Source of the DNA: an uncultured Chlorobiaceae bacterium
GTDB lineage: Bacteria > Bacteroidota > Chlorobiia > Chlorobiales > Chlorobiaceae
Direction of reading: 5' to 3'
DNA length: 40,980 nucleotides
NCBI GenBank assembly: GCA_903942355.1
Contig: CAJAOR010000108.1
Coordinates: 1 to 40,980 of the forward strand
Shown in pieces: positions 16,597 to 26,988 of the stretch (positions within the stretch are counted from its first letter, which is position 1; each line of letters begins with the position of its first letter). The notes under the pieces are model-generated. The model saw only the letters and a list, made by a program, of their open reading frames with translations. It searched no databases and was not told where the DNA came from. The translations under genes and the position numbers were made by a program.

Positions 16597-16823
16597 GCAT
16601 CACTCAGATTGCGATTCCCCATAAATCCTTCATCGTCAAAACAATTTCCCGAAAACAACCCAAGGATAGCTGTCGGTGCCTGTCCATGCCGGCTGATGTA
16701 TTGGAACTTAATCTGACTCATGTTAAGCGGTTATAGCGTTCTTTCGGATTTGTTGTGTTTTCCTTGAAAATGGGTTACTTTTCACTGAAATTACACGTAC
16801 GGTTCCCATTTTGATTGCAAATC

Positions 16824-19800
16824 ATGAGCAACCCTCCAGAAAAGTCACTTGACACAAGAGTCCTGCGGTTGGAACATGAAATGGAAGAACTCCTGGCAGT
16901 CATTCAAAAGCTTGAATCCGCTTCAGTCAACCCGTCGCGCCAATTAAACACGACGATACCTGAAAACACCACTGCAGAAAACACCGTCAATCTTTATGGA
17001 GGCTCACTTGACCAGAGAGTCCAGCGGCTGGAAATGGAGATGGACGAACTCCCGGCGGTCATTCAGGACCTTGAGTCTGTATCAGTCAAGAATCCATACG
17101 ATGAAAGCACTCCGCCCCCGGATAACCAACTTACAGCAACGCAACCCAACGACGAGGTCCCAGAAAAAAACGATTCAGTTGCCAGACGAGCCGAGAAAAA
17201 AAACACCATTATCAAAAATGAAAATATTCTCAGTAAGGCAGGCATCGGTTTGCTTCTTTTTGGTATTGCCTTTTTCTTCAAATACTCATTCGATCAGGGC
17301 TGGATTGGCCCTGAAATAAGAGTTCTTGCGGCAACAGTTGCAGGATTCGCCATGTTGACGGCAGGCCATACGTTGTATGATAAAAAGAGATATTTCAGTC
17401 TTGTCATGACAGGCGGAGGTATCGCCGTCTTCTATATCACCGCCTTCTCGGCCTTTCAGATTCTTCATCTTGTTACACTCGCCACGGCCTTTCTCTGCAT
17501 GTCGGCCATAACCGCACTATGCTTTTTCCTGTCGGTAAAACAGAAGGAAGCGGTATTGTCCCTTATCGCGATAGCTGGGGGTTTTGGAACTCCATTTGTT
17601 CTCTACAGCGATTCCAATAACATACAGGCATTAGTCAGCTATATCGTTTTGCTGCTGATAGTTGCAGGCAGTATCTACTTGATTCGTGGCTGGATATCAC
17701 TGTTCTGGACAGGTCTCACGGGCGGATTACTTTTTTTTATGATTCCTGTTCTGGACGGTGCTTTTCTCAACAGGGCGACTGATATCAATGACAAAATTGC
17801 CTTGCAGGCCGGAACTCTCCTTCTGTGCATTGGTTACTCATTCCTTCAGTCCTTCCGGATTTTATCCTTGAGGAAACATCATGACGAGCCCCTTCCACAG
17901 GCAATTGCCGGTGAAATATCCCGTCAACAAGTGCACATACCACTGATCATCCTGATTCTTGCATTTGTCACGCTCCATATTTCGCTGACTATCTGGACGC
18001 TCCCGTCAATGGTGTGGGGATTGGTAACGGCTCTTGTGGCAATGCTTTACCTTGGACTTTCACGTGTTCTAGCTGATAAAGAGCGTGCAGTGACTTATCT
18101 TCCAATAATATTGAGGCTTACCGGATATTTGTTTTTTGTTGCCTCTCTTGTTCTGTTTTTCAGCGGCGACCCGTTCATCTTTGTGCTTTCAGGGATAGCG
18201 GTAATACCCCATATGCTCGCCACCAGAAGGAAGCCTGCAAATCTCAACGGTATTGGCCATCTCTTGTTTGGCTTGCTCATCATATGGTTGACCGAATACC
18301 TCTCTGTGAGCGTTGCTGAACCGGTTAACCAGCTCAGAATCGGGTGGGGGTCTTGCGAACTGCTCTGGGTTATCGCTCTGGCTTTTGGTACCTCATTTGT
18401 TTTTGATACGCAGAGTGAAAAACAAGCGTACCGTGTTATTGCCCACGCTTGCGTATTATGGTGGTTTTACTACGTCATTTCTCCGCTTGTTGATGGAGAG
18501 GCCTATGTCTCCATTGCATGGATGTTCTATGCGATGGTCCTGCTTATGGTAAGTCGGCGTATGGATTACGACAGGGTGCAGCAGACCGCCATGGGTACCC
18601 TGCTCATTTTGGTTGTCAAACTGTTTTTTGTTGATATCGCCGAGTTTGAAACCACCTGGCGGACCAGCCTTTTTCTTTTTACCGCAACAGGTGCAGGATT
18701 CGCCATGTTGTATTCAGGCCATTTGTTGCATGATAAAAAGAGATCTTTCAGTCTTGTCATGACCGGTGGAAGTATAGCCGTCTTCTATATCACTGCCTTT
18801 ACTGCCTTTGAGACTCTTCAGCTTGTATCGTACGCCACAGCCTTCATTTGCATGTCAGCAACAACGGCACTGAGCTTTTTCCTGTCGGTAAAACAGAAAG
18901 AAGCCGTGTTGTCACTTAACGCAATAGCAGGCGGTTTTGTAACCCCCTTTGTTCTCTCCTGCGATACAAACAACATACCGGCGTTAGTCAGCTATATCGT
19001 TTTGCTGCTGATAGCTGCAGGCAGCATCTACTTGATACGCGGCTGGCTATCGCTTTTCTGGACAGCTCTTACGGGTGGATTGCTTTTTTTCCTGATACCG
19101 GTACTTCCGGGTCAGTTTCTCAACATGGCGACGAACATCAACGACAAAATTGCCTTGCAGGCAGGAGTTTTTCTTTTGTGCATGGGCTATTCTTTTCTTC
19201 AGCCGTTCCGTTTTTTATCCGTAAACAACCCTCATGAACAGCCCATTCCCGATGCAATTGCCGGAGAAATATCTGGTCAACAGGTGCAAATACCACTGCT
19301 CATATTGCTTTTTGCATTTTTCACTTCTTATATCTCTCTGAGTATCTGGACACTTCCCGGGAGTGTATCGGGGCCTGTGCTTGCGCTGGCAGGAATGCTT
19401 TACCTGAGTCTCTCTCTTATGGTGGCTGATAAAGAGGGCTCTATACCTTATCTGCCAATAATATTGAAGCTTACCAGTATTTTGTTTTTCGTTGCCGCTC
19501 TTGTTCTCTTCTTCGGCGGCAGCCCTCTTATCTTTGTGATTTCTGGCATTGCGGCCGTTCTTCATATTCTCGCTTTCAGAATGAAGTCAGCAAATCTTAA
19601 AAGTGCAGCTCATCTCTTGTTTGGACTCATGATGGTATGGCTCATTGGAGACATCGTTGACCATGCTGTTGAACCGATTAACCAGCTAAGCATCGGGTGG
19701 GAATCACTTGAAGTGCTCTGGGTTATCGCTCTTGCTTTTGGTATCTCGTTTGTTTGCAACGCGCCGAGTGAAAAACGAGCGTACCGCATTTTTGCCCACA

Positions 19801-20117
19801 TCGCCATGTTATGGTGGTTGCACCACATCCTGTCACCGTTCGGCAATGGGGAAGCCTATGTCTCCATTACATGGCTGCTCTATGCGATGATCCTGCTTGT
19901 TACCAGTTTGCGTATGGATTACGAACATGTGCAGCAGACCGCCATGGGCACCCTGCTCATTTTGGTGATCAAACTATTTTTGATTGATCTTGCTGAGCTT
20001 GAAACCATCTGGCGCATCACGCTTTTTCTTTTTGCAGGCACCATATTTCTCTTGCTCAGCTATTATTTCAGGTCTCTCTCAAAACAGAAGCAGGAGGAGT
20101 CGGAGCCTAACGGATAA
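16824..20117 (+). CDS. DUF2339 polytopic membrane protein with internal duplication
   Basis: A very large (1097 residues) membrane protein of the DUF2339 family, whose function is unknown. The first 140 residues are cytosolic and hold two coiled-coil heptad segments, RVLRLEHEMEELLAVIQKLES and a near copy 53 codons later. They are followed by a charged linker (RRAEKKNTIIKNENI). The rest is almost continuous hydrophobic helices. It consists of two tandem copies of one 451-residue unit, about residues 169-619 and 620-1070. Shared landmarks include SFFLSVKQKEAVLSL or FFLSVKQKEAVLSL, LVSYIVLLLI and VQQTAMGTLLILV. Single-copy DUF2339 proteins are common, so the doubled form is unusual. The ATG at 16824 is preferred over a TTG three codons earlier. 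Neighbours give no functional clue. Confidence 0.85.
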   Translation: MSNPPEKSLDTRVLRLEHEMEELLAVIQKLESASVNPSRQLNTTIPENTTAENTVNLYGGSLDQRVQRLEMEMDELPAVIQDLESVSVKNPYDESTPPPDNQLTATQPNDEVPEKNDSVARRAEKKNTIIKNENILSKAGIGLLLFGIAFFFKYSFDQGWIGPEIRVLAATVAGFAMLTAGHTLYDKKRYFSLVMTGGGIAVFYITAFSAFQILHLVTLATAFLCMSAITALCFFLSVKQKEAVLSLIAIAGGFGTPFVLYSDSNNIQALVSYIVLLLIVAGSIYLIRGWISLFWTGLTGGLLFFMIPVLDGAFLNRATDINDKIALQAGTLLLCIGYSFLQSFRILSLRKHHDEPLPQAIAGEISRQQVHIPLIILILAFVTLHISLTIWTLPSMVWGLVTALVAMLYLGLSRVLADKERAVTYLPIILRLTGYLFFVASLVLFFSGDPFIFVLSGIAVIPHMLATRRKPANLNGIGHLLFGLLIIWLTEYLSVSVAEPVNQLRIGWGSCELLWVIALAFGTSFVFDTQSEKQAYRVIAHACVLWWFYYVISPLVDGEAYVSIAWMFYAMVLLMVSRRMDYDRVQQTAMGTLLILVVKLFFVDIAEFETTWRTSLFLFTATGAGFAMLYSGHLLHDKKRSFSLVMTGGSIAVFYITAFTAFETLQLVSYATAFICMSATTALSFFLSVKQKEAVLSLNAIAGGFVTPFVLSCDTNNIPALVSYIVLLLIAAGSIYLIRGWLSLFWTALTGGLLFFLIPVLPGQFLNMATNINDKIALQAGVFLLCMGYSFLQPFRFLSVNNPHEQPIPDAIAGEISGQQVQIPLLILLFAFFTSYISLSIWTLPGSVSGPVLALAGMLYLSLSLMVADKEGSIPYLPIILKLTSILFFVAALVLFFGGSPLIFVISGIAAVLHILAFRMKSANLKSAAHLLFGLMMVWLIGDIVDHAVEPINQLSIGWESLEVLWVIALAFGISFVCNAPSEKRAYRIFAHIAMLWWLHHILSPFGNGEAYVSITWLLYAMILLVTSLRMDYEHVQQTAMGTLLILVIKLFLIDLAELETIWRITLFLFAGTIFLLLSYYFRSLSKQKQEESEPNG
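16848..17094 (+). repeat. Tandem coiled-coil repeat, 159-base period
   Basis: The segment at 16848-16935 is repeated in frame at 17007-17094. Both encode LD-x-RV-x-RLE-x-EM-x-EL followed by AVIQ-x-LES. The offset is exactly 159 bases (53 codons). It duplicates the N-terminal coiled coil of the DUF2339 protein separately from the larger membrane-domain duplication. Confidence 0.8.
17329..18681 (+). repeat. Copy 1 of 1353-base intragenic repeat
   Basis: First membrane unit of the DUF2339 protein. Landmarks recur exactly 1353 bases later: GCAGGATTCGCCATGTTG near 17340, TTAGTCAGCTATATCG at 17631 and GTGCAGCAGACCGCCATGGG at 18576. Identity is visible at DNA level, including identical stretches longer than 20 bases. 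The constant offset shows no net insertion or deletion between these landmarks. Confidence 0.9.
18682..20034 (+). repeat. Copy 2 of 1353-base intragenic repeat
   Basis: Second membrane unit, directly abutting the first. Matching landmarks are at about 18693, 18984 and 19929. Many differences are at third codon positions, which suggests both copies stay under protein-level selection. The ends of the unit are approximate, placed where similarity fades. Confidence 0.9.
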
Positions 20118-20158: not shown

Positions 20159-20262
20159 ACTGGCGAGCAAGGCTCTTTGGGCAAACATTCAGCAGGGCAA
20201 TTCTGGATTGTAGTGGCGTTCTTTCCGGCAACGCTGGGAATCGTGGCCATGCTGTTTTCTTT

Positions 20263-20291
20263 TTGCAAAGTTGTGAACCTTGGACTACATT
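20263..20291 (+). promoter_or_regulatory. Candidate promoter of the biotin operon
   Basis: TTGCAA (20263-20268) and TACATT (20286-20291) are separated by 17 bases and each match four of six bases of the sigma-70-type -35 and -10 consensus. The BirA operator overlaps the spacer and the region just after the -10. This is the arrangement expected of a repressible promoter. The assignment rests on consensus match and position only. Confidence 0.45.
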
Positions 20292-20302
20292 CAGGTTTAC
20301 AT
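20271..20302. promoter_or_regulatory. BirA operator (biotin-responsive)
   Basis: TTGTGAACC (20271-20279), 14 bases, then GGTTTACAT (20294-20302). The comparative-genomics consensus for bacterial BirA sites is TTGTAAACC-N14/15-GGTTTACAA. This site matches it at 16 of 18 positions with an allowed spacer. It lies 45 bases before birA, the first gene of the bio operon. BirA here has the DNA-binding domain needed to use it. Biotinoyl-AMP-bound BirA is therefore expected to repress birA-bioBFGCDA. I found no second site upstream of any other gene in the cluster. Confidence 0.82.
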
Positions 20303-20347
20303 TTTGTTTGGAAACGCAGCTTTTTTCCTCATCTTCTGCTCCCTGTC

Positions 20348-21334
20348 ATGAACGACGTTACCGCACATATTTTGAGTCGCCTGACGGTCGTTGCTGATTT
20401 TTTGTCGGGTGAAGCGCTTTGTCGTGAATTTGCCATCACCCGAAGTGCCGTATGGAAGCATATTGGCTTGCTTCGGAGCGAAGGTTATCATATTGAGGCT
20501 GTAACAGGTCGAGGATATCGGCTCTCAGGTCTGACCGGCCGTCCTGTAGAGGCTGAGGTACAGCCGTTTCTCGATGGCCGTCGGTTTGGAAAAAAAATCA
20601 TCTATCACCCCCTTATCGCATCGACCAATATTCTGGCCAAGGCTCTGGCTGTTGACGGCGCGCCGGAAGGTTGCGTTGTAGTTGCCGATTCCCAGAGCGG
20701 TGGTCGGGGCAGAATGGGGCGTACCTGGGTATCGCCTCCTGGTGTAAATCTCTATTTTTCCCTGATTTTGCGTCCGGGTGTGCCTTCAATTCGTGTGCCG
20801 CAACTGACTCTGCTGGTCGCAGCGGCTATTCATCAGGCATTCTGCAAGCTTTCTTTCGATCTTGTGGCGAAGATCAAGTGGCCGAACGATATTCTTGTCC
20901 GCGGCAAAAAGTTGTGTGGCGTGTTATGTGAAATGCAGTCAGAACCAGATTGTACACACTTTGTCGTTGTTGGTATCGGTATCAATGTAAACCAGTCAGA
21001 GTTTCCTCCCCTGCTGCAGGATAGTGCAACCTCGCTTTTTTTGGAGAGAGGCCAGCTGTTGTTGAGGCCGGAGCTTCTTGCCTCAGTCCTCAACCATTTC
21101 GAGCCACTCTATGACGAATGGCTGCTACAGGAGGACCTCAGCTTTATTCTTCCCTATCTCGAAGCACACTCGCTTTTGCAGTCGAAGGAGGTGACGGTCG
21201 ACCAGCTAAAACGAAGCCTCAGCGGAACGGTAAGGGGTATATCCTGCAGAGGAGAGCTTAAGCTCGAAAATGCGGAGGGAGAAACCATCCTTGTTTCGTC
21301 TGGAGAGGCTCACCTGCAAGCGACACTATCCTAA
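20348..21334 (+). CDS. birA: Biotin-protein ligase / biotin operon repressor
   Basis: A 328-residue bifunctional BirA. Residues 1-60 form a winged helix-turn-helix (LCREFAITRSAVWKHIGLLR, then the wing VTGRGYRL). The catalytic domain contains the biotinoyl-AMP loop GGRGRMGR at 118-125 and KWPNDILV near 177-184. Lys188 follows in KKLCGVL, equivalent to the E. coli active-site Lys183. The C-terminal SH3-like domain ends the protein. It attaches biotin to carboxylase carrier proteins and, when loaded, should bind the operator just upstream. The frame runs open for another 57 codons before the ATG at 20348. That extension contains the operator and has no family similarity, so the ATG is the start. 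bioB follows after 20 bases. Confidence 0.95.
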   Translation: MNDVTAHILSRLTVVADFLSGEALCREFAITRSAVWKHIGLLRSEGYHIEAVTGRGYRLSGLTGRPVEAEVQPFLDGRRFGKKIIYHPLIASTNILAKALAVDGAPEGCVVVADSQSGGRGRMGRTWVSPPGVNLYFSLILRPGVPSIRVPQLTLLVAAAIHQAFCKLSFDLVAKIKWPNDILVRGKKLCGVLCEMQSEPDCTHFVVVGIGINVNQSEFPPLLQDSATSLFLERGQLLLRPELLASVLNHFEPLYDEWLLQEDLSFILPYLEAHSLLQSKEVTVDQLKRSLSGTVRGISCRGELKLENAEGETILVSSGEAHLQATLS

Positions 21335-21354: not shown

Positions 21355-22353
21355 ATGGAATCAACAGTAATACATCCTCAAATTGTTGCGGCATACCGTG
21401 TTCTTGAAACCGGTGAACCCATCAGCCAAGCCGAAGCCCTTCTGCTTGCAGATTTGCCCGGTGAGCTTGCGCTTGATTTGGCTGCACTGGCAAACAAGGT
21501 TAAAAACCGCTATTCAGCTGAATCGCTTCACGCCTGCTCCATCATGAATGCCAAATCGGGCGTTTGCGGCGAAAACTGTCGCTTTTGTGCGCAGTCCAAG
21601 CACAATCATGCCGATATTGAAGTCTATGATCTTGTCAATGAAGAGTCGGTGCTTATTGAGGCACGGAACTGTTTTGCCGCGGGGATCTCCCATTTCGGAA
21701 TCGTGACCAGTGGTTACGGTTATAAACGGATAAACCCGGAGTTTCAGCGGGTGCTCGACATGATTGACCGTCTCCATTCGGAGCTGCCGGAACTGAGTGT
21801 CTGTGCATCGCTAGGCATGTTGGGCGAAGAGCCTGCGAAGGCACTTGCCGCGCATGGTATTGCCCACTACAACATCAATATTCAGGTTGCGCCCGATAAA
21901 TACAATACGCTTATTGCCGATACGCACAGCGTCCAGGAGCGGATCGAGACCATCAAGCGGCTGAGAAAGAACAACATATCTGTCTGCTGCGGAGGCATTA
22001 TGGGAGTCGGTGAAACCATGCAGGATCGGATTACAATGATATTTGCGTTACAGGAACTTGATGTTTCCGTCATTCCGCTTAATGTACTGGTTCCGATCGA
22101 AGGTACCCCGCTTGCAGGAAAAGAGCCGGTTTCAGTGGCTGACATTGTGAAAACCTTTGCCATTTGCCGTCTGGCCCATCCCCATAAAGTCATCAAGTTT
22201 GCTGCGGGCAGAGAGACGATCATGAAGGATTTTCAGGGGTTGCTGATGTTGTCGGGCGCAAACGGTTATCTGACAGGCGGTTACCTGACTACACGGGGAC
22301 GCGATATCGCCGACGACCACCGGTTTGCCTGTCAGATCGCAAGTTTTAACTGA
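21355..22353 (+). CDS. bioB: Biotin synthase (radical SAM), variant ligand set
   Basis: The 332-residue enzyme inserts sulfur into dethiobiotin, the last step of biotin synthesis. The radical-SAM cluster motif is CGENCRFC (Cys71, Cys75, Cys78). Family landmarks [23 protein letters not shown] and AAGRETI are present. By hand alignment to E. coli BioB, Cys97 of the classical [2Fe-2S] site is Gly115 here. Arg260 corresponds to Lys281. The other two ligands remain as Cys150 and Cys211 (or the adjacent Cys212). This suggests the auxiliary cluster differs from the textbook one. I recall recent work on BioB types from anaerobes that use a [4Fe-5S] auxiliary cluster; this protein may belong there. 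Its place in a complete bio operon supports the biotin synthase role. It starts 20 bases after birA. Confidence 0.93.
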
Positions 22354-22368: not shown

Positions 22369-23538
22369 ATGCAGTTTCAGGATCGGATCAGTCAGGAGCT
22401 TGATGAGCTCCGGCGCCTTGATCGCTTTCGGATACTTCCGGATATTACGGCACGTAATGGCAAGCATATTGCGGTGAACGGCCAGTTTCTCCTGAACCTC
22501 TCCTCGAACGATTATCTCGGTCTTGGCGACGACAGGGAGATGCTTGCCGGTTATGCAGAAGAGTTCAGCGAGAGGCAGTATGCCATGACCAGCTCTTCCT
22601 CCCGTCTTCTGACGGGCAACCATCCGCTCTACGACCAGTTGGAAACAGCCCTTGCCCGGCTCTATGGGCGTGAAGCTGCGCTGGTGTTCAACAGTGGCTA
22701 TCATGCCAACATCGGCATCATTCCTGCCCTCAGTGGCCGCCATGATCTTGTGCTCAGTGACCGCAAAAACCATGCAAGCATCATTGACGGGATGAAGATT
22801 GCCGAAGCCCCCTATCAGCGCTACCGTCACCTCGACTACGATCATCTTGAAGAGCTGCTTGAGAGAGCTGCCGGCCGCTACCGCCAGATATTCATTGTCA
22901 CCGAATCGGTTTTCAGCATGGACGGAGACCTTGCCGATCTTTCAAGGCTTGTTGCCCTGAAAGAGAAGTATGGAGCTCTGCTTATTGTCGATGAAGCGCA
23001 TGGTGTCGGAGTCTTCGGAGAGCGCGGTCTTGGGCTGTGTGAAACGGCTGGAGTGGTACAGCAGATCGACATTATTACTGGTACCTTTGGCAAGGCGCTG
23101 GCATCCACAGGAGCCTACGCCGTGATGAGCTCTCTTGTCAGGGAGTACCTGATCAATACCATGCGCTCCTTTATTTTTACCACGGCACTGCCGCCCGCAA
23201 TTCTTGGCTGGAGCCAGCTTACGCTTGAACGGCAGGTCACCATGCAGCGGGAGCGGCAAGCCCTCCTGCAGCTTGCCTCAAGGCTTCGCTGTGAGCTGAT
23301 TGCCCAATCTCTTGATGTTCCCGGCGAAAGTCACATTGTGCCGGTGATTACCGGCAGCAACGCTCTTGCCGTGGCACTCGCTGCCCGGCTCCGGGATGCC
23401 GGGTTTCTTTGTCTTCCGGTACGTCCCCCTACTGTGCCCGAAAAGAGCGCCCGCATCCGCATTTCGCTCCGCTCAACACTGCGGTGGGAAGATATTGAGC
23501 CGATAGTGGGACTCATTGGAGGGATAACAGGATCATGA
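22369..23538 (+). CDS. bioF: 8-amino-7-oxononanoate synthase
   Basis: The 389-residue PLP enzyme condenses pimeloyl-ACP (or -CoA) with L-alanine to give 8-amino-7-oxononanoate. The N-terminal SSNDYLGL, the motif FNSGYHAN, the PLP-contact VDEAHGVGVFG and the Schiff-base lysine motif TGTFGKALAS are all visible and in family order. The C-terminal RISLRSTLRWEDI helix is also typical. A purine-rich ribosome site (AAGGAAAGG) precedes the ATG. The gene begins 15 bases after bioB, and its stop codon overlaps the bioG start as ATGA. Confidence 0.95.
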   Translation: MQFQDRISQELDELRRLDRFRILPDITARNGKHIAVNGQFLLNLSSNDYLGLGDDREMLAGYAEEFSERQYAMTSSSSRLLTGNHPLYDQLETALARLYGREAALVFNSGYHANIGIIPALSGRHDLVLSDRKNHASIIDGMKIAEAPYQRYRHLDYDHLEELLERAAGRYRQIFIVTESVFSMDGDLADLSRLVALKEKYGALLIVDEAHGVGVFGERGLGLCETAGVVQQIDIITGTFGKALASTGAYAVMSSLVREYLINTMRSFIFTTALPPAILGWSQLTLERQVTMQRERQALLQLASRLRCELIAQSLDVPGESHIVPVITGSNALAVALAARLRDAGFLCLPVRPPTVPEKSARIRISLRSTLRWEDIEPIVGLIGGITGS

Positions 23539-24224
23539 AAACAGCATGGCTCAGAAAAGAGGGAGCAGAAGAGCTTCTGCTTTTCTTTAACGGATGGGGT
23601 ATGGATCGACGCATTGCCGACTACCTTCTCGCCGAGTCGCTTTCTGAAGGGTTTGCTTCGGATCTCCTGCTCTGCTATGATTACAGTTCCCTGGAGCATG
23701 AACCGGGGTTTATCTATGAGGTCAGTCGTTATGACCGGATAACGGTTGTTGCCTGGTCATTCGGTGTATGGGTCGCGCAACATATTGAACTCCCCCCTAT
23801 ATCATATGCGATTGCCATCAACGGGACTCTCCATCCGGTAAGCGCGGAAAAAGGGATCAACCATCAGGTTTTTCAGGCAACCCTTTCAGCCTGGTCTGAA
23901 AAGAGTCGCAACCTTTTCAATCGCAGAATGTGCGGTACAGGCGAAGTCCTCGCTCTTTTTTCAAGCATGTCGCCTGATCGTTCAGCAGCTGATCAGCGGG
24001 CAGAGCTGGAGCGGCTCCAAGAGCACTTTCTGACACCCCATTCAGCACGCAGTACCGCATGGCGCTATGATCATGCCATTATTGGCGGACGCGATCTTGT
24101 TTTTCCTGCACCACAACAGTGCCAAGCCTGGAAAGGAGTTCCTCAAACAGTTATAGCCGATATGCCTCACTTCCCGTTTTTTCATTTCAGTAACCTTCAG
24201 GAGGTGCTCGAGTGCCTCCGTTGA
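23535..24224 (+). CDS. bioG: Pimeloyl-ACP methyl ester esterase BioG (DUF452)
   Basis: A 229-residue alpha/beta-hydrolase of the DUF452/BioG family. It removes the methyl group from pimeloyl-ACP methyl ester, ending the BioC-primed fatty-acid cycles. It replaces BioH of E. coli. The oxyanion region FFNGWGMD (17-24) and the nucleophile elbow AWSFGVW with Ser75 are visible. The C-terminal GGRDLVFP supplies the likely acid residue and MPHFPFFH the catalytic His. The start overlaps the bioF stop (ATGA), and bioC starts inside its last codons. The tight order bioF-bioG-bioC strongly supports the function, as this pairing recurs in Bacteroidetes and Chlorobi. Confidence 0.9.
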   Translation: MKTAWLRKEGAEELLLFFNGWGMDRRIADYLLAESLSEGFASDLLLCYDYSSLEHEPGFIYEVSRYDRITVVAWSFGVWVAQHIELPPISYAIAINGTLHPVSAEKGINHQVFQATLSAWSEKSRNLFNRRMCGTGEVLALFSSMSPDRSAADQRAELERLQEHFLTPHSARSTAWRYDHAIIGGRDLVFPAPQQCQAWKGVPQTVIADMPHFPFFHFSNLQEVLECLR

Positions 24225-24994
24225 TCAACAAGCAATTGGTTCGCGAACGATTTTGCCGAACACTCAGAAGCTACGGCAGTCAAGCTGTGGTGCAGAAAGC
24301 GATGGCCGAAGAACTTACAGGCATTATCTGCCGCGAGGAGCCTGGTTGCTCGTTTGGGCGCGTTCTTGAAGTTGGTTCAGGTTCAGGAGCGTTCACGACT
24401 GAACTGCTGAGCCGCTGCTCAGTCAAGAGCTATTATGCCAATGATCTGGTCGAAGAGAGCCTTTTTGCTCTTCAGGGGGTTCTTGACCGGCATCCCGTTG
24501 AGGAGTTTCACTTTCTTGCCGGAGATATCGAGCGTCAGGAGCTGTTGCCATCAGCGCTTGACCTTGTTGCTTCGAGTGCCACACTGCAATGGCTTGATGA
24601 CCTTGATGGATTTTTCAGAAATATATCCGCTCATCTCAAGCCCGGCGGTATACTCGCTTTCAGCACCTTTGGGCCCTCGAACATGCGAGAAATATCGAGC
24701 ATCGAGGGCGTCGGACTCAGCTATCACACACTTGGAGAGCTTGAACTGCTCGCCGGACGGTATTTTGATCTGACCGTCAGCCGCGAAGAGCATACGCGCA
24801 TGGAATTCAGTTCCCCTGAAGCGATGCTTTGTCATATACGGCAGACCGGTGTCAACGGGCTGCTTCGCAGCTCATGGACCAAAAGCCGCTATCTCCATTT
24901 TGTCGAAGAGTATCGGCGACTTTTTTCCTGTGAAAACGGCGTTTACCTGACCTATCATCCTCTTTATTGCTGTCTGAAAAAAAGAGTGTCATGA
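24212..24994 (+). CDS. bioC: Malonyl-ACP O-methyltransferase
   Basis: The 260-residue SAM-dependent methyltransferase masks the free carboxyl of malonyl-ACP so that the fatty-acid machinery can build the pimeloyl chain. The N-terminus NKQLVRERFCRTLRSYGSQA is the BioC signature for the helix preceding motif I. VLEVGSGSGAFT is the SAM-binding motif I, and SSATLQWLDDLDGF is a family landmark. It begins with GTG at 24212, supported by a good ribosome site (GAGG, 8 bases upstream). The gene overlaps the end of bioG by 13 bases. Its stop codon overlaps the bioD start. Confidence 0.93.
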   Translation: MPPLINKQLVRERFCRTLRSYGSQAVVQKAMAEELTGIICREEPGCSFGRVLEVGSGSGAFTTELLSRCSVKSYYANDLVEESLFALQGVLDRHPVEEFHFLAGDIERQELLPSALDLVASSATLQWLDDLDGFFRNISAHLKPGGILAFSTFGPSNMREISSIEGVGLSYHTLGELELLAGRYFDLTVSREEHTRMEFSSPEAMLCHIRQTGVNGLLRSSWTKSRYLHFVEEYRRLFSCENGVYLTYHPLYCCLKKRVS

Positions 24995-25665
24995 ACGGAA
25001 CCGTCATCGCAGTTTCCGGTATCGACACCGGAATCGGAAAAACATATGTGACCGGCCTGCTGGCCAAAGTTCTGATTCAGCAGGGAAAAATGGTAATCAC
25101 ACAGAAAATTGTCCAGACCGGTTGCGAAGGGATGGCGGAAGATATCCTTGAACACCGTCGCCTGATGGGTCTTGGCCTGCAGGATGCCGATCGAGAGGGG
25201 CTCACCTCCCCCTGTGTATTCTCTTTTCCGGCCTCACCTCACCTTTCAGCCCGCCTGGAAGGCACCCAGATCGATCTTCACCATATCCGCCAATCTACCA
25301 TTGCCCTACAGCAACGCTACGACCTCGTGCTTCTTGAAGGGGTTGGCGGGCTCCTTGTCCCGCTTGCTGCGGATCTCCTTTTTGCGGACTATATCAGGGA
25401 TGCCGGATACGGGCTTTTGCTGGTGACAAGCCCCCGGCTTGGCAGCATTAACCATACCCTTCTCTCGATCGAGGCCTGTGTGAAAAGGGATATCGTTATC
25501 CGGGGAGTTATCTACAACTCTGTTCAGCCTGCTGACCGGCTGATTGTTGATGATACCCGTGAAGTTATTGGTCACTATCTCGTCAAGGCTGGATATAATG
25601 CCCCGATCATAGACCTGCGTGATGGCCGGCTTGACCTGGACGCGGTGGCGCATCTCTCTTTATGA
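24991..25665 (+). CDS. bioD: Dethiobiotin synthetase
   Basis: The 224-residue ATP-dependent enzyme closes the ureido ring of dethiobiotin from 7,8-diaminononanoate and CO2. The P-loop GIDTGIGKT is at 10-18, with the conserved TDTGIGKT-type glycine/threonine pattern. KIVQTG follows, and LLEGVGGLLVPL carries the acidic Mg/ATP residue. The ATG at 24991 overlaps the bioC stop as ATGA. An upstream TTG at 24967 in the same frame would add eight residues inside bioC and is less likely. bioA follows after 30 bases. Confidence 0.94.
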   Translation: MNGTVIAVSGIDTGIGKTYVTGLLAKVLIQQGKMVITQKIVQTGCEGMAEDILEHRRLMGLGLQDADREGLTSPCVFSFPASPHLSARLEGTQIDLHHIRQSTIALQQRYDLVLLEGVGGLLVPLAADLLFADYIRDAGYGLLLVTSPRLGSINHTLLSIEACVKRDIVIRGVIYNSVQPADRLIVDDTREVIGHYLVKAGYNAPIIDLRDGRLDLDAVAHLSL

Positions 25666-25695
25666 TAATTTTTTTCAGTTCCTTAGCTCACCGGT

Positions 25696-26988
25696 ATGGC
25701 CATGCAGTCCAGCTTTATTGACCTTGATTTTGACCGTCATCATATCTGGCATCCCTACACATCAGTAACGGCTCCTCTGCCGGTTTATCCGGTTTCCCGC
25801 GCATACGATGTCTTTCTTGAGCTTGAAGATGGCCGCCGGCTTGTTGACGGCATGTCCTCATGGTGGGCCGCAATTCACGGCTACAGCCACTCTGTGCTCA
25901 ACGACGCGATGGTCTTGCAGCTTAAGCGCATGAGTCATGTCATGTTCGGAGGTCTCACCCATGAACCAGCCGTAACTCTTGCCAAACAGTTGGTAGCTCT
26001 CACTCCTCAGCCACTGCAGAAGGTGTTCTTCAGCGACTCCGGTTCCGTAGCTGTTGAAGTTGCCATCAAGATGGCGTTTCAGTACTGGGCTGCCCTGGGT
26101 GAAAAGCAGAAAAACCGGTTGCTGACGGTTCGATCCGGTTACCATGGCGACACCTTTGCGGCCATGTCGGTCTGCGATCCGGTAACCGGTATGCACTCCC
26201 TCTTCAAAGGGGTGATGCCGGAGCAGTACTTTGCCGATGCACCCTCGTGCCTGTTTGGTGAGCCCTGCAGTGATGAAGATATTGCCGGCCTTCGTTTGCA
26301 GCTTGAGAGGCATCACCAGGAAATTGCCGCCGTGATTATCGAACCGGTGGTTCAGGGCGCGGGGGGAATGCGCTTCTACTCTCCGCACTATCTCCGTCGC
26401 CTCCGGGAACTCTGCGACCACTACAGCGTACTCCTCATTCTCGACGAAATAGCCACCGGCTTCGGGCGCACAGGAAAAATGTTTGCACTGGAACATGCCG
26501 CGATAGTGCCGGACATCATGTGTGTCGGCAAAGCGCTCACCGGCGGTTACATGACCCTTGCCGCAACCCTGACAACAGAGGATGTGGCCGATACAATCTG
26601 TTCAGGCAATCCGGGCCTCTTCATGCATGGGCCGACCTTTATGGCAAATCCTCTCGCCTGTGCCGTCGCATCCGCAAGTATTAGTCTGCTTTGCAGTTAT
26701 GATTGGCTGGCATCGGTTCTGCGGCTTGAAGCCGGGCTTCGCCAGGGGCTTGAGCCATGCAGGGCATCAGGCAATGTAGCGGATGTTCGTGTGCTTGGCG
26801 CCATAGGAGTGGTCGAGCTCCACAAGCCGGTCGATATGGCCGTTATCCAGAAACAGTTCGTTGATAAAGGAGTCTGGGTTCGCCCCTTTGGTCGCCTCGT
26901 CTATCTTATGCCCCCTTTTATCATGCGCGACGAAGAGCTTGGCATATTAACGACGGCGGTTTGCGATATTGTGGACTCAATGCGGTAA
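25696..26988 (+). CDS. bioA: Adenosylmethionine-8-amino-7-oxononanoate aminotransferase
   Basis: The 430-residue PLP aminotransferase turns 8-amino-7-oxononanoate into 7,8-diaminononanoate, normally using SAM as amino donor. Visible family motifs include IWHPYTS near the start, [15 protein letters not shown], the PLP-phosphate site [27 protein letters not shown] and [18 protein letters not shown]. The Schiff-base lysine is in [14 protein letters not shown] codons at 25696 and 25702 are both possible; neither has a clear ribosome site. It is the last gene of the bio operon. The 80 bases after it show no strong terminator. Confidence 0.95.

Follow-up and report, generated by a model that had tools for sequence, protein, structure and literature searches.

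A probable type II biotin synthase of the Chlorobiaceae with lysine at the position of the cluster arginine

In the type I biotin synthase of Escherichia coli (BioB, PDB entry 1r30), Arg260 is a ligand of the auxiliary [2Fe-2S] cluster alongside Cys97, Cys128 and Cys188. A type II biotin synthase with a [4Fe-5S] cluster was reportedly described by Lachowicz et al. in 2024. The PDB entries 8vdw (V. parvula BioB) and 8vcw (B. obeum) were released on 2024-01-24, near the type II paper in time, and we take them to be the published type II enzymes. Both carry equivalents of Cys61, Cys150 and Cys211 of the BioB analyzed here and have no Cys97, and their putative cluster ligands are assigned in this work from these sequences. 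PMC11099021 and PMC11138216 report type II BioB for anaerobes. In PMC11099021, Ser43 is named among the residues around the E. coli [2Fe-2S] cluster, and the BsaP-dependent BioB of mycobacteria is described as having lost Cys128 and carrying Glu at the Ser43 position. LipS1 and LipS2, which carry out a BioB-like radical-SAM sulfur insertion, have four-iron auxiliary clusters (PMC9585515). A literature search for later papers on the type II ligands found none.

The BioB studied here is encoded in a window of 40,980 nt (the whole stretch of DNA analyzed) from an uncultured member of the Chlorobiaceae, a family of obligate anaerobes. The bioB gene (21355..22353, + strand) is an intact ORF encoding a biotin synthase of 332 aa. 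The product scores 361.3 bits against the TIGR00433 bioB model (equivalog cut-off 225), falls far under the cut-offs of HydE, PylB, LipS1/2 and other models, and contains the Pfam domains PF04055 (Radical_SAM) and PF06968 (BATS). Its nearest named relatives are from the Chlorobiaceae. Upstream lies birA (biotin-protein ligase/repressor; 20177..21334, + strand; BPL_LplA_LipB and HTH_11 matches), whose real start may be downstream of the TTG. Downstream are bioF, bioG, bioC, bioD and bioA, in that order (22369..26988, + strand; Pfam matches). The order birA-bioB-bioF-bioG-bioC-bioD-bioA is kept in 9/9 Chlorobiaceae loci checked, and birA adjoins bioB elsewhere in the family too. From this operon context the gene product is predicted to be a biotin synthase that converts dethiobiotin to biotin. 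It is the single BioB above the cut-off in the source genome (77% complete), where no second, classical BioB was found. Two other genomes (G297 and G635) each carry two full-length BioB genes with at least 50% identity to the query. Elsewhere in the window (16815-20117) a DUF2339 membrane protein of 1100 aa consists of two halves with long near-identical repeats, as if by a recent internal duplication.

Relatives were collected from GTDB contigs, plasmids and sampled genomes, covering the window's phylum, the phyla of a spirochaete and of a Lentisphaerae relative, and two further classes. The deduplicated alignment holds 182 sequences, 124 with lysine at position 281 of the query (Lys-type) and 58 with arginine. 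Arginine sequences with Cys61 and without Cys97 were designated Arg-type II (n = 22, both solved enzymes included), and 36 rows are type I-like. E. coli numbering was anchored on 1r30, with Ser43, Cys53/57/60, Cys97, Cys128, Cys188 and Arg260 all falling on the correct letters. The equivalences between the query and E. coli were obtained by phmmer, MAFFT and pairwise BLOSUM62 alignment, and the three methods agree, with position 115 gapped against E. coli in the BLOSUM62 alignment.

A sequence-only reading of this DNA had stated that the radical-SAM cysteines and the equivalents of Cys128 and Cys188 are kept, and the alignments agree. The CxxxCxxC motif providing the radical-SAM [4Fe-4S] ligands (Cys71, Cys75 and Cys78; 21565..21588; this and all codons below on the + strand) is invariant in 182/182 aligned sequences. 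Cys150 (21802..21804), the equivalent of Cys128 and a proposed auxiliary ligand, is present in 117/124 Lys-type and 21/22 Arg-type II sequences. Cys211 (21985..21987), equivalent to Cys188 and also a proposed ligand, is invariant in all groups. The same reading placed Gly115 at E. coli Cys97 and Lys281 at Arg260, and both placements were confirmed by the alignments and by a first comparison of 81 loci. The Cys97 position (codon 21697..21699 in the query) holds Gly in 118/124 Lys-type sequences, Ser or Ala in Arg-type II and Cys in type I. Lys281 (22195..22197), which defines the lysine subtype, is Lys in 124/124 Lys-type sequences by group definition; the position is Arg in 22/22 Arg-type II and 36/36 type I-like rows. 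A pseudogene or a sequencing error was rejected as an explanation, the ORF being intact and the substituted residues common to relatives; Gly115 and Lys281 are not sequencing errors because the 81-locus comparison found Lys281 in 81/81 loci and Gly115 in 80/81.

The claim that this BioB is without two auxiliary-cluster ligands held for the substitutions and failed for the supposed loss of a cysteine, since Cys61 (21535..21537) at the position of E. coli Ser43 had been overlooked. Cys61 is invariant (124/124 Lys-type and 22/22 Arg-type II), is present in 8vdw and 8vcw, and is a third proposed ligand. We propose a three-Cys set of 61/150/211 in place of 97/128/188; the auxiliary site would have lost no cysteine, because Cys61 makes up for the absent Cys97. 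Cys61 by itself is not diagnostic of type II, as 14/36 type I-like BioBs combine the Ser43-to-Cys change with Cys97. L086 and L098 are among the Bacteroidota loci whose type I-like BioBs have both of these cysteines. Other cysteines considered as substitute ligands (Cys106, Cys212, Cys271 and Cys326) were rejected, none being conserved in the 182-sequence alignment. Cys106, put forward earlier as a possible occupant of the Cys97 place, is found in 47/124 Lys-type sequences, and the replacement is Cys61. The importance first given to an extra Cys adjacent to Cys211 did not survive the comparison either. Relatives carry Cys, Ser, Thr or Ala at position 212 (Cys in 84/124 Lys-type), and Cys212 is an unlikely ligand because the position is variable and is also Cys in 6/36 type I-like rows.

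An AlphaFold model of the query was built from 20 family members, two plasmid-derived rows being excluded (pLDDT 90.4, pTM 0.91). The model matches 8vdw with a TM score of 0.91, 8vcw with 0.86 and 1r30 with 0.83. It is thus closer to the two presumed type II enzymes. The nearest PDB sequences follow the same order (8vdw, 8vcw, 1r30), with 34-38% identity to 8vdw and 8vcw and 33% to 1r30. The suggestion of a [4Fe-5S]-type cluster is therefore backed by homology and fold, though not by the features originally offered as its marks, the Arg260-to-Lys change and Cys212. The former does not mark type II, because Arg is kept in both solved structures as well as throughout the 22 Arg-type II sequences sampled.

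The query differs from the type I pattern of Cys97, Cys128, Cys188 and Arg260 by Gly115 and Lys281, and at Cys61, Gly115, Cys150 and Cys211 it follows the pattern seen in 8vdw and 8vcw. It lacks their Arg at the Arg260 position, a residue that may not be type-defining, and because of Lys281 we filed it as a type II variant and not as a standard member. It resembles 8vdw and 8vcw in the Cys at Ser43, the absence of Cys97, the kept Cys128 and Cys188, the fold (TM scores of 0.86-0.91) and the anaerobic lineage. It departs from them with Lys in place of Arg at Arg260, Gly in place of Ser at Cys97, Gln in place of Glu at Asp155 and Val in place of Ser at Ser218, and it has no Arg at the Arg95 position. 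With E. coli BioB it shares the radical-SAM motif, Cys128, Cys188, Asn153, Asn222 and the expected reaction, but it has Cys61 and is without Cys97 and Arg260. The auxiliary site is altered as in the BsaP-dependent mycobacterial BioB; dependence of that kind was rejected because the query keeps Cys150 at the Cys128 position and has Cys61, not Glu, at Ser43. Unlike LipS1 and LipS2, the query has another substrate and operon and stays far under the LipS model cut-offs.

The Lys281 sequences comprise 72 Chlorobiaceae rows and 52 others, the latter including members of the Spirochaetes, Kiritimatiellia, Lentisphaerae/Victivallales, a Bacteroidales MAG and Ilyobacter polytropus. Lys-type and Arg-type II sequences differ at several positions surrounding the active site: His/Ser/Thr/Ala versus Arg at Arg95, Gly versus Ser/Ala at Cys97, Gln versus Glu at Asp155, and Val/Gly versus Ser at Ser218. 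A quick maximum-likelihood tree placed the query within the group with Cys61 and no Cys97 (SH-aLRT 95) and, inside it, in a nested lysine group (97). Two long-branched Lys sequences (L171 and L208) fell outside the lysine group, so the lysine type may have had one or two origins. No BioB match at E <= 1e-40 was found in the ten listed genomes that belong to the window's order but not to its family (0/10), and the nearest kin of the query outside the Chlorobiaceae are in Spirochaetes and Kiritimatiellia/Lentisphaerae. Taken together, these two observations hint at horizontal acquisition. A search of viral contigs for BioB found no relative.

Cys150 is absent in seven Lys-type sequences, and in five of these a new Cys appears at position 113 or 115. 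The new Cys is at 113 in L155-157, at both 113 and 115 in L159, and at 115 in L205. Neither of the other two, L161 and L162, has such a Cys, and both carry His at position 150. In L080 Cys113 and Cys150 are both present. In the query, position 113 is His (21691..21693, equivalent to E. coli Arg95). Positions 113 and 115, the latter being the Cys97 position, alternate on one strand (113-118) of the AlphaFold model. A Fisher test of Cys150 against Cys113/115 gave p = 6e-7 with the sequences treated as independent of descent. The tree suggests only about three losses of Cys150 in the lysine group, two of them compensated, and the test is therefore not taken as proof. These data suggest that three cysteines are required in the pocket, the third of which can be supplied by an adjacent strand; the relocation is suggestive only, because about three evolutionary events lie behind the pattern. 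The BioB of a haloarchaeal plasmid (L142, locus 1866-2969, from Natrinema thermotolerans) combines Cys61 and a kept Arg260 with Gly at the Cys97 position and Asp at Cys128. This is yet another ligand set, from a largely aerobic lineage.

We consider it likely that the Chlorobiaceae BioB is an ordinary type II biotin synthase of a lysine subtype, built on the three-Cys [4Fe-5S] model with a cluster content predicted from its relatives. The enzyme would bridge C6 and C9 of dethiobiotin with sulfur. As proposed for type II enzymes, the radical-SAM cluster held by Cys71, Cys75 and Cys78 would cleave SAM, and the 5'-deoxyadenosyl radicals would take hydrogen from C9 and C6. Cys61, Cys150 and Cys211 probably hold a four-iron auxiliary cluster where E. 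coli BioB has a [2Fe-2S] cluster, and its fourth iron would carry a terminal sulfide, the probable transferred sulfur. Cys61 would take over from Cys97, and Lys281 fills the Arg260 position, within a shell reworked at His113, Gln177 and Val239. Lys281 may bind or stabilize the cluster or its sulfide. The data above show the residues, their alignment and conservation, the fold and the operon; we infer the cluster stoichiometry, the ligation, the sulfide transfer and the role of Lys281 by analogy. The lysine subtype may already be described in the type II paper.

The same three cysteines could also hold a plain [4Fe-4S] cluster, or a four-iron cluster ligated by Lys281, that is consumed as in lipoyl synthases and has no extra terminal sulfide. 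We regard this as quite unlikely: the nearest solved enzymes, those of V. parvula and B. obeum from 2024, share these cysteines, and lysine is a rare ligand of Fe-S clusters. The preserved three-Cys sites and the Lys at the Arg260 position across the whole subgroup would fit such a cluster, as would the auxiliary [Fe4S4] clusters of the LipS1 and LipS2 relatives (PMC9585515). A type I-like [2Fe-2S] cluster, with Cys61 substituting for Cys97 and Lys281 for Arg260, seems very improbable to us. The fold does match 1r30 (TM 0.83), and Cys61 occupies the position of Ser43, which in E. coli lies close to the [2Fe-2S] cluster (PMC11099021). Against this, the query is nearer to 8vdw and 8vcw in both sequence and structure, and the tree sets it with the type II sequences, apart from type I; its family, moreover, is anaerobic. 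There is hardly any chance that the protein is a related radical-SAM enzyme with a different substrate and not a biotin synthase. HydE, PylB, LipS and others in the BioB superfamily match weakly, but the score is well over the bioB equivalog cut-off and far under theirs, the gene lies within a complete bio operon, and it is the only above-cut-off BioB in the 77%-complete genome.

A more far-reaching reading, which we think unlikely, treats the lysine clade as a functionally distinct biotin synthase class, with cluster chemistry or regeneration unlike that of type I and of the solved type II enzymes. Lys281 would then stand in for the arginine flanking or binding the auxiliary cluster, perhaps as a fourth ligand or a residue handling protons or sulfide, and the movement of the three-Cys site (Cys150 to 113 or 115) would imply that chemistry or regeneration differs.

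The supply and regeneration of sulfur in biotin synthase is a long-debated question, and the arginine beside its auxiliary cluster ranks among the oddest features of the enzyme. In the natural, multi-phylum lineage described here that residue is always lysine. The lineage, with its reworked pocket and its ligand relocations, offers natural comparisons for the Arg/Lys position and for each cysteine. For the classification of BioB sequences, an absent Cys97 is to be judged jointly with the Ser43-to-Cys change. On the preferred type II assignment, a lysine subtype of the oxygen-sensitive type II BioB, of the kind reported in 2024, would span several phyla.
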